Below are positions 31,382-41,712 of a stretch of DNA of 64,000 nt, one piece after another. The DNA is from Saccharothrix longispora (GTDB lineage: Bacteria; Actinomycetota; Actinomycetes; Mycobacteriales; Pseudonocardiaceae): assembly GCF_030852425.1 (NCBI RefSeq), contig NZ_NSDM01000008.1, positions 1 through 64,000 on the forward strand, in the 5' to 3' direction. A program made the position numbers and the translations under genes. Under the pieces are notes generated by a model. The model was not told the origin of the DNA. It was given only the letters and a program-made list of their open reading frames with translations, and searched no databases. Every line of letters begins with the position of its first letter. The first letter of the stretch is position 1.

Positions 31382-31575
31382 CGGTCACCCCCTGCGCCGA
31401 ATGGTCGACGGGGATCGGCGAGCGGTGGTGACCCGCGGCACGGGAACAACGCGGCACCCCCTCGCGTTGCAGTGCACGTAACGCCGATCTGGCACACTGT
31501 CGGGTCGAGTCCGGCTCCGGTTCACCTCCCTGATCAGCGGAGGACCCGGCGGCCACCGAAGAAAGGGACGAGACG

Positions 31576-39317: not shown

Positions 39318-39725
39318 CCCGTCGCCCTGGTCCCTCCGGCGCGAGGACCGTGCCCGGCCCCCGCGCGCGCCACCCATCGGTACCCCGACGTGATCGGCCG
39401 ACCGGCGGCGAACCGATCCGTACGATTGCGGCCCGGTGGTGGTTCCTTCGTGCGGTCGGGTCGGGAGGCGTCGACCACCGCGGTGAGCAGGTCCCCGGTC
39501 GCGGGCCGGCACCCGACCGGTCCGGAGGCGCAGGCCGCGTACTCGGTCCCGCCGGTCTCCCGACACGCGACCGCGGTCCGCGCCCGACTCCTCGGATTCC
39601 CACCGCACCGCGCGGAACCCGCGGACCTCCGCGCGCCGGGTGTGAGCCCGCCCTCGGCGGGCCTCTGTGCACGCAGCGTCACGACGGTGTACCTGGTCGT
39701 GTCTGTTTTTTCCCTTTTGTATGTC
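39318..39725. other. Intergenic region, no gene seen
   Basis: About 400 bases between the vWA-like pair and the terC leader. ORFs on both strands read as Arg/Pro/Gly-rich shadows with no ribosome site. The last 60 bases turn T-rich (TGTTTTTTCCCTTTTGTATG), which fits a promoter-upstream element. Confidence 0.45.
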
Positions 39726-39754
39726 TTTACGCCGTGGTGGAGCCGGACGATACT
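39726..39754 (+). promoter_or_regulatory. Probable promoter of the terC riboswitch transcript
   Basis: TTTACG (39726-39731) and GATACT (39749-39754) are exactly 17 bases apart. Transcription would start near 39761, the first base of the riboswitch P1 helix. Confidence 0.6.
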
Positions 39755-39760
39755 GAGCGC

Positions 39761-39880
39761 TGAGGGGAGTACTTCCCAAGCGTCTGCCCGGTCAGTACGG
39801 ACGTCCCTCGGCGCCCCCGGGAGGCCGCCCCCGCGGGGGTGAAGGAGACCTCGAACCACTCCGGTGTCCGGGAGGTTCGA
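39761..39880 (+). promoter_or_regulatory. yybP-ykoY-type (manganese) riboswitch candidate with sequestering hairpin
   Basis: The leader shows the class landmarks in order: GGGGAGTA at 39764-39771, CAGTACGGAC at 39793-39802, and GAAGGAGACCTC at 39841-39852, with GAGG/CCTC able to close P1. Just after it, TCGAACC (39851-39857) pairs perfectly with GGTTCGA (39874-39880), covering the ribosome site GGAGG (39871-39875) and the A of the ATG. The 3' strand of P1 overlaps the 5' strand of this hairpin, so ligand-bound P1 would free the ribosome site. yybP-ykoY riboswitches sense Mn2+ and often precede terC/alx-type genes. The Mn2+ specificity is inferred from the family. Confidence 0.8.
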
Positions 39881-40905
39881 TGTCCGCGTCGGCCGCGGCG
39901 GCCGCGAGTCCGGTCGAGTCCATCGGGTCCGCGGGCTTGTGGACGGTCAGCATCGCCGTCCTGGTCGCGCTGCTCCTCGCGGATTTCGCGGTCACCCACC
40001 GCCCGCACGAGGTGTCGGCGCGCGAGGCGGTGGGCTGGACGGTGTTCTACCTCGCCCTGCCGGTCGTGTTCGGGGTCTGGCTGTGGAACGCCTTCGGCAG
40101 CGGCCCCGCGGTGGAGTTCGCCACCGGGTTCGTGGTCGAGAAGTCCCTCTCGGTGGACAACCTGTTCGTGTTCATGCTGCTGCTCGCCGCCTTCGCCGTG
40201 CCGGCCGACGTGCGGCAGCGCGTCCTGCTCTACGGCATCGTCGGCGCCCTGGTGCTGCGGGGCGCGTTCATCGCGGCAGGCGCCGCGATGCTGGCGGCCG
40301 GCACCTGGGCGTTCCTCGTGTTCGGACTGGTCCTGCTCGCCTCGGCGGTGAAGTTGCTGCAGGAGGTGTCGACCGGCGGCGGCGCCGAGCGCGACGTCTC
40401 CCGGCTGCGGGTGGTCCGGCTGCTGCGCCGGCTGATGCCGGTCACCGACGACTACCGCGGCGCGCGGCTGACCGTGCGCGAGCACGGGCGCCGCGCGCTC
40501 ACACCGCTGGCGGTCGTGGTGGTCGCGGTGTTCGCCACCGACGTGGTGTTCGCCGTCGACTCGGTGCCGGCGGTCTACGGCATCACCGAGGACCCCTACC
40601 TCGTGTTCGCCACCAACGCCTTCGCCCTGCTCGGCCTGCGCGCCCTGTACTTCGTGCTGCACACCGCGCTCGCCAAGCTCGTCCACCTCAACCACGGGCT
40701 GGCCGTCATCCTCGCGTTCATCGGGGTGAAGCTGGTGCTGCACTGGGCGCACGGCACCTGGCCCGCCGTGCCGGAGATCCCCACCCCCGTCTCCCTGGCC
40801 GTGATCGTCGGCGTCCTCGCCGTCGTCACCGTGACCAGCCTGCGCTCGCGGCGACGTGCCCGGGCGCCCGTACCCGCCCGGAAGGCCACCACACCACGGG
40901 ACTGA
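39880..40905 (+). CDS. terC: TerC-family membrane protein (probable Mn2+ exporter)
   Basis: A 341-residue protein with eight or nine membrane helices. TerC signatures are VVEKSLSVDNLFVFMLLL and ATDVVFAVDSVPAVYGITEDPYLVFATNAFALLGLRALYFVL, with membrane-buried Asp and Glu residues that could form a metal path. Family members such as Alx export manganese and load extracytoplasmic metalloproteins. The riboswitch upstream supports this. ATG 39880 overlaps the sequestering hairpin. The tail ends basic. Confidence 0.9.
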   Translation: MSASAAAAASPVESIGSAGLWTVSIAVLVALLLADFAVTHRPHEVSAREAVGWTVFYLALPVVFGVWLWNAFGSGPAVEFATGFVVEKSLSVDNLFVFMLLLAAFAVPADVRQRVLLYGIVGALVLRGAFIAAGAAMLAAGTWAFLVFGLVLLASAVKLLQEVSTGGGAERDVSRLRVVRLLRRLMPVTDDYRGARLTVREHGRRALTPLAVVVVAVFATDVVFAVDSVPAVYGITEDPYLVFATNAFALLGLRALYFVLHTALAKLVHLNHGLAVILAFIGVKLVLHWAHGTWPAVPEIPTPVSLAVIVGVLAVVTVTSLRSRRRARAPVPARKATTPRD

Positions 40906-41394: not shown

Positions 41395-41712
41395 ATGCGC
41401 AAGGCATTTTCCGCGGCATTCGCGACGGTGGGCGCGGCGGTCGCGCTGGCCGTCGGCCTGACCGCTCCGGCCGCCGCCGCCCCGGCTCGGGCCCAGGCCC
41501 CGGTGCAGGAAGCGGCACCCGCGGCCTGCGGTTCGTTCGGGGTGTTCAGCCTCTACTACAACCACTGCGGCACGACCCGGGTCGTCATCTGGGTCGACCA
41601 GATCAACGTCGGTGGTTACCGGGACTTCGAGATGTGCGTCGGCCCCGGCGAGACCCTGATCGGTCCTCGGCCGCAGTACATCGACGCCTGGTACAACGGC
41701 AAGCTCTGCTGA
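41395..41712 (+). CDS. Small secreted protein, DUF6355-like
   Basis: A 105-residue exported protein. Residues 1-30 are a signal peptide with an AxA site (TAPAAAAPA). The mature part has four cysteines (about 45, 58, 82, 105) and motifs YYNHCGTTRVVIWVD and CVGPGETLIG, ending AWYNGKLC. This pattern matches the DUF6355 family seen across actinobacteria, whose role is unknown; paired disulfides are likely. A GGGGGAA ribosome site precedes the ATG. It stands alone. Confidence 0.75.
   Translation: MRKAFSAAFATVGAAVALAVGLTAPAAAAPARAQAPVQEAAPAACGSFGVFSLYYNHCGTTRVVIWVDQINVGGYRDFEMCVGPGETLIGPRPQYIDAWYNGKLC

Follow-up and report, generated by a model that had tools for sequence, protein, structure and literature searches.

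The leader at 39762-39852 of the window (the whole 64-kb stretch of Saccharothrix longispora DNA that was analysed) is very probably a Mn2+-sensing aptamer of the yybP-ykoY class that starts the terC messenger. Mn2+ would free the ribosome site in the leaders of related terC genes, and its effect would probably be weaker here. Judged by its sequence, this leader is a divergent actinobacterial member of the known Mn2+ riboswitch class, ordinary in kind, with an unusual expression platform. Knowledge of the class itself is not changed by it; of interest are that the label has been missed on leaders of actinobacterial terC genes and that the platform of S. longispora is rearranged. All features of the window described below lie on the forward strand.

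Aptamer structure in the aligned leaders

Relatives were taken as the best 80 of 247 terC loci, and the leader preceded 79 of these 80 best named relatives, no further than about 420 nt upstream of the point where the protein match begins. The one locus without a leader and two duplicates were left out, and the remaining 77 relatives were aligned with the window (alignment A1, 78 rows). The 3' ends of two rows (L057 and L105) were trimmed by hand since a second GAGACC had been picked up. The covariance model R1 was built on a subset (A2) of 43 of the 77 relatives sharing less than 87% identity, with the window left out. The 78 aligned leaders with their covariation-supported translational platform form a resource in their own right.

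The three class landmarks proposed in the earlier note were found in the order given there, with GGGGAGTA from 39764, CAGTACGGAC from 39793 and GGAGACCTC from 39844. The switch helix P1.1 pairs GAGG (39762-39765) with CCUC (39849-39852), and P1.2 pairs CUUC (39772-39775) with GAAG (39841-39844). Between these helices lie the two sides of L1, GGAGUA (39766-39771) and GAGA (39845-39848), both invariant in 78/78 rows. The proximal part of P3 is formed by 39782-39791 and 39817-39825 and encloses L3, UCAGUAC (39792-39798), and the distal P3 hairpin (39799-39816), which carries one A-C mismatch in the window. The P4 hairpin occupies 39827-39840. Invariant throughout A1 were GGGGAGUA of L1, the U, C, A and last C of L3, and GGAGACC; the middle three bases of L3 vary.

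Under the structure composed of P1.1, P1.2, the two-part P3 and P4, 96.9% of 2258 cells of A1 were paired, and double changes occurred at 15 of the 29 pairs. No shuffled alignment (0/500) scored as high on any of five measures. Structures slid by shifting the 3' partners gave pairing of only 42-53%; this control is the safer one because related sequences can exceed shuffles without any structure. Compensatory changes were found in P1.1 (A-U to G-C in 2/78 rows) and in P1.2 (U-A to C-G in 6/78 rows, turning CUUC/GAAG into CCUC/GAGG). In P3, 5/9 proximal and 6/7 distal pairs vary on both sides; in P4 this holds for 1/4 pairs, in one row. The helices P1.1, P1.2, P3 and P4 that characterize the class are present by the covariation of the 78 rows.

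A P2 helix, and with it a four-way junction, is missing: the spacer between P1.2 and P3 measures only 5-8 nt in all 78 rows (6 nt in the window) and leaves no room for it. P2 was not taken as class-defining, because the available text of PMC9495176 describes a three-way form as the canonical one of a class member from Streptococcus.

RNAalifold alone paired the GAGG of P1.1 locally with CUUC in place of P1.1 and P1.2, and this fold was not adopted for the bound state. The local GAGG/CUUC hairpin can form in 312/312 cells and shows zero double changes, compared with six cells with a double change in P1.2. It is a possible ligand-free alternative.

Class assignment, probable ligand and distribution

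Model R1 matched the window at 39758-39854 with 90.3 bits (E 7e-23), a score as high as in the relatives, and no other R1 match was found in the 64 kb up to E 10. The leaders of E. coli alx and mntP are both reported as Mn2+ riboswitches in the accessible part of PMC9603457. R1 recognized the alx leader with 44.5 bits (E 8e-10), the match stopping 80 nt short of the alx gene, and did not find the mntP leader.

A search with the Rfam yybP-ykoY model had been named as the check on the class. The model (RF00080 in Rfam 15, under the name 'Manganese', with 177 positions and a cut-off of 45 bits) gave no match in the window, nor at E<=10 on 351 nt. It was equally silent on the whole genome of the strain at E<=0.001 and on 14 terC loci, including that of the window, at E<=10. 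On E. coli K-12 no match reached the gathering score in the alx and mntP leader stretches, and none was obtained on the alx leader (301 nt) at E<=10; mntP gave a clear match of 41.6 bits (E 5e-10) below the cut-off. In control genomes the family was seen in 5/14 and exceeded the cut-off in 2/14. The silence of RF00080 on the window is weak evidence because the model wholly misses alx, a reported member; it counts slightly more because mntP is recognized. The window leader lies below the RF00080 threshold, which is a label and not a biological feature, and the 45-bit cut-off is too strict as a criterion of the class.

In 25 genomes of the genus, RF00080 gave no match above the cut-off, and none among the matches listed was a leader of the window's terC type. 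The five best (23.2-25.2 bits, all below the cut-off) fell on R1 loci, which ties the two models together. Two sub-threshold RF00080 matches in the genus precede a gene for a GDT1-type cation/proton antiporter, called by PF01169 on the piece from L185 and by similar sequence for L186. Genes for antiporters of this type are also among the usual targets of the Mn2+ riboswitch class.

The metal site was compared with solved aptamers. In the available text of PMC6754395 and PMC9190785, the Mn2+ site of the L. lactis aptamer consists of L1 and of U39, C40, A41, U44 and C45 of L3; the L3 loops read UCA41AU43UC in L. lactis and ACA48U49ACU52 in X. oryzae, and A41 and A48 are the corresponding sensing adenosines. 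As the L3 of the window is UCAGUAC, A39794 is the expected Mn2+-sensing base. The GGAGUA of L1 and an L3 with this adenosine are kept in 78/78 rows.

A different ligand for the same fold, either another divalent ion or pH, appears improbable. A class member that binds Ca2+ as well is reported in the available part of PMC9495176, and the alx leader of E. coli responds also to alkaline pH according to the text seen of PMC9603457. Nevertheless, no row departs from L1 or from the U, C, A and C of the Mn2+ site, and the downstream gene is of the Alx/TerC kind. The U44-equivalent place does vary (A in 75, C in 3 of 78 rows), but this metal contact is described in the accessible text of PMC9190785 as being made through the phosphate.

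That there is no riboswitch at all, the leader being a protein-binding element or a chance motif, would fit the missing Rfam match and the finding that the stability of the leader did not exceed that of shuffles (z -0.53). Covariation, homology to alx and the residues of the metal site speak to the contrary, and this reading is highly improbable. The manganese-type assignment of the earlier note was upheld.

R1 matches were found in 25/25 genomes of the genus, the strain itself and one further genome of the same species included, and under stricter filters in 87/246 genomes drawn from the class, again with the strain included. The downstream genes of 29 class loci, chosen as the best-scoring, one per genome, and not as a random draw, were surveyed with TerC as tblastn query against up to 1400 nt 3' of the leader; 23 of the 29 stand before terC. 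The other six include L140, which is without the motif used in the search and whose downstream gene lies outside the survey. These matches raise the hypothesis that Mn2+ controls actinobacterial terC genes in large number, a group to which RF00080 gives no label at its cut-off. Apart from the Rfam labels of C. glutamicum, the open PMC literature, as far as the available text of its articles goes (PMC4046766, PMC8164766 and PMC3766115 among them), yielded no work on a Mn2+ riboswitch before terC in actinobacteria.

Other genes also follow R1 matches. At four loci from other genera of the class (L136, L139, L142, L146) the match precedes a predicted protein of 278-292 aa, picked as the longest ORF; by tblastn these proteins are not TerC, and Pfam gave no match to the first 90 aa of the one at L142. 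On contig C51 of the S. longispora genome (151505-151604) the same aptamer (R1, 58.4 bits) is followed by an anti-SD-like hairpin and by the gene of a predicted lipoprotein of about 130 aa, whose first 90 residues had no Pfam match. A leader of this type before the conserved lipoprotein gene was also seen at eleven loci of the genus. Control of the predicted lipoprotein by Mn2+ is possible.

Putative promoter and expression platform of the terC leader

The terC/alx-type gene (39880-40905) encodes 341 aa and is preceded by the leader RNA; the window belongs to contig C53 of the 8.28-Mb genome. The product contains the TerC domain PF03741 and matched TIGR03718 ('TerC/Alx family metal homeostasis membrane protein') with 349.4 bits (cut-off 246.4). 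It is 37% identical (118/323 positions) to E. coli Alx, which is annotated as a Mn2+ exporter, and by the TIGR03718 match a gene of Mn2+ homeostasis stands downstream of the leader. Saccharothrix and Lentzea are among its nearest named relatives. Four TerC genes were found in the genome, on contigs C9, C11, C2 and C53, and R1 places a leader before two of them, those on C53 and C11. Elsewhere in the window, an Rfam L31-Actinobacteria ribosomal protein leader was detected at 31511-31554 (50.9 bits), and a small predicted protein with DUF6355 (PF19882) is encoded downstream of terC at 41395-41712.

A -35-like element, TTTACG (39726-39731), is followed after 17 nt by a -10-like element, GATACT (39749-39754), from which a transcription start at about 39761-39762 is predicted. 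GATACT recurs 12-14 nt upstream of the first base of P1.1 in 32/78 aligned leaders, and TTTAC or TTGAC begins 35-36 nt upstream of it in 20/78; this recurrent spacing makes a start at P1.1 plausible. A strict consensus promoter scan found 0 promoters, and the TTTACG/GATACT pair was not listed. Transcription of the terC messenger probably starts at or beside the first P1.1 base, as had been proposed from the promoter.

In the relatives, CCUCGAAC unites the P1.1 3' strand with the four bases that follow it, and its partner is GUUCGAGG, the first part of GAGGAGG. The resulting anti-SD hairpin has 8 bp, and its 5' strand includes the CCUC of P1.1, so that the switch strand is wholly shared. In the alignment 96.5% of the cells of this hairpin were paired and 5/8 pairs vary on both sides; no shuffle (0/500) was as high on four measures, while 49/500 were as high on the number of pair types. 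Seven or eight of the eight pairs are possible in 74/78 rows, and the window belongs to the four rows that fall short of this: it lacks one base, and in the old register GAAC stands opposite GUCC.

In place of the old register, the window has the perfect 7-bp hairpin described in the earlier note, in which UCGAACC (39851-39857) pairs with GGUUCGA (39874-39880). GUUCGA has come to lie over the start codon, preceded by GGGAGG within the hairpin. The ribosome-binding site GGAGG (39871-39875) is covered as claimed, although the 3' strand itself takes in two G of the SD and, of the ATG of terC, only A39880. Overlap between the 3' strand of P1.1 and the hairpin likewise exists, but it is confined to two bases, 39851-39852; the relatives' hairpin has four bases in common with P1.1.

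Among the compared leaders this register occurs only in the window and in the single other genome of the species (G448). The leader of the latter is identical to that of the window from 10 nt upstream of GGGGAGTA through the start codon, and an assembly error is therefore unlikely. The old register, with 8/8 conserved pairs, was present in 16/16 other loci of the window's type fetched from the genus. Two of these 16 loci (L155 and L175) were read by eye, two (L156 and L176) resemble each other, and some of the 16 are probably from species already present in A1; two further R1 places stand outside the 16.

Control may in principle act on transcription. Some class members control terminators according to the available text of PMC9190785 and PMC11087558, yet no terminator-like site was found in 39600-39900, and seven or eight of the anti-SD pairs can form in 74/78 rows, as given above. 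Control through Rho or a terminator instead of translation is improbable.

We propose the following mechanism. The aptamer, an actinobacterial form without the P2 hairpin, would open the terC messenger. With Mn2+, L1 is expected to dock onto L3 and P1.1 to become more stable. In the relatives the CCUC of P1.1 also serves as the 5' strand of the 8-bp hairpin holding the GAGG of the ribosome site. Because CCUC is common to both helices, Mn2+ would release the site there and switch translation on. In S. longispora the hairpin is shifted to the start codon and has only two bases in common with P1.1, so that the coupling is probably weaker; control would act on the start codon and the base of the hairpin instead of releasing the whole site. 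Homology, the helices of the aptamer, the relatives' conserved anti-SD hairpin and the rearranged sequence of the hairpin are what the analysis shows; Mn2+ binding, the direction of control and its strength in S. longispora are what we infer.

The computed energies are nearest-neighbour estimates that leave aside Mn2+, tertiary contacts and the ribosome. In the ligand-free ensemble of the window leader the hairpin had a probability of 0.97 and P1.1 of 0.03, which makes the OFF state plausible. The leader preferred another fold at -55.0 kcal/mol, compared with -47.2 kcal/mol when the aptamer was enforced. The anti-SD fold was lower than the aptamer fold in 77/78 rows, and P1.1 exceeded 0.5 in none.

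When P1.1 was formed, the residual 5-bp hairpin of the window with its inner stem was predicted at -12.7 kcal/mol; the median of the 77 relatives was -5.8, and only one of them lay below the window. Pairing of the ribosome site stayed at 0.82 in the window (0.82 before and after), and the median of the relatives went from 0.57 to 0.42, with as small a drop as in the window in 8/77. The only base released in the window was the A of the start codon (0.85 to 0.0). Enforcing the aptamer reduced ribosome-site pairing in only 46/78 rows. Competition between P1.1 and the anti-SD hairpin is clearer in the relatives with their four shared bases, and the release computed by this model is modest even there.

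The earlier note had claimed a full mechanism of translational activation by Mn2+. In its complete form, P1.1 stabilised by Mn2+ would open the whole 7-bp hairpin, and terC translation would be turned on as in the relatives. For this leader the claim was only partly supported, and not in that form: the overlap comprises two bases, and the stable residual hairpin leaves site pairing unchanged. Owing to the limits of nearest-neighbour estimates, the energies weaken this mechanism without disproving it, and we regard it as conceivable but somewhat doubtful. It accords with the ligand-free ensemble, and P1.1 and the hairpin are mutually exclusive in their complete forms through the two shared bases. 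A fifth P1.1 pair (U39761-G39853) would also weaken the residual hairpin to -8.2 kcal/mol. Against this, the residual hairpin without that pair is the second most stable of the 78 rows, and even with it site pairing remains at 0.81.

Alternatively, the platform may have become uncoupled beneath an intact aptamer, so that this terC is translated at a low level or independently of Mn2+ and the riboswitch-bearing terC on contig C11 does the regulated work. The rearranged hairpin of the window and of the same-species genome, set against the old register at all 16 other loci of the genus, points in this direction, as does a genome with four TerC genes and a second leader-bearing terC. The identical leader in the same species and an aptamer score as high as in relatives, however, suggest continued selection, and we consider uncoupling a tentative explanation at most.

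We return to the reading of a Mn2+-sensing aptamer that is coupled more weakly here. Altered at the part that opens the ribosome site, the platform of the window may switch poorly. It can be suggested, with considerable reserve, that a re-registered platform under an unchanged aptamer gates initiation, or has lost its grip on it, by unpairing no more than the base of the hairpin and the A of the AUG. If true, this would be a natural platform change beneath an unchanged aptamer. The natural variant lets one ask how much overlap between the strands of P1.1 and the anti-SD hairpin is needed for switching.

Comparison with known systems

The leader of C. glutamicum terC (cg2157) is, like that of the window, an actinobacterial terC leader, and was compared by description and not by sequence. 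According to Table 2 of PMC3890552, as available, it was labelled RF00080 by an older Rfam with 49.13 bits, and its start site was observed; the search of control genomes with RF00080 (E<=0.001) did not list C. glutamicum.

The E. coli alx leader resembles that of the window in the GGGGAGUA of L1, an L3 of the form UCA-NNN-C, GAGACC and the layout of P1.1, P1.2, P3 and P4; it is matched by R1 (44.5 bits) and precedes a gene of the Alx/TerC kind. In contrast to alx, the window leader has a far shorter P4 side and is G+C-rich.

With the riboswitches of L. lactis yoaB and X. oryzae, the window shares an L3 seven-mer whose third base is the sensing adenosine (UCAGUAC in the window), as far as the available descriptions of the two go. 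Those two are described there as four-way junctions that control transcription, whereas the window leader has 6 nt at the place of P2 and an anti-SD platform.
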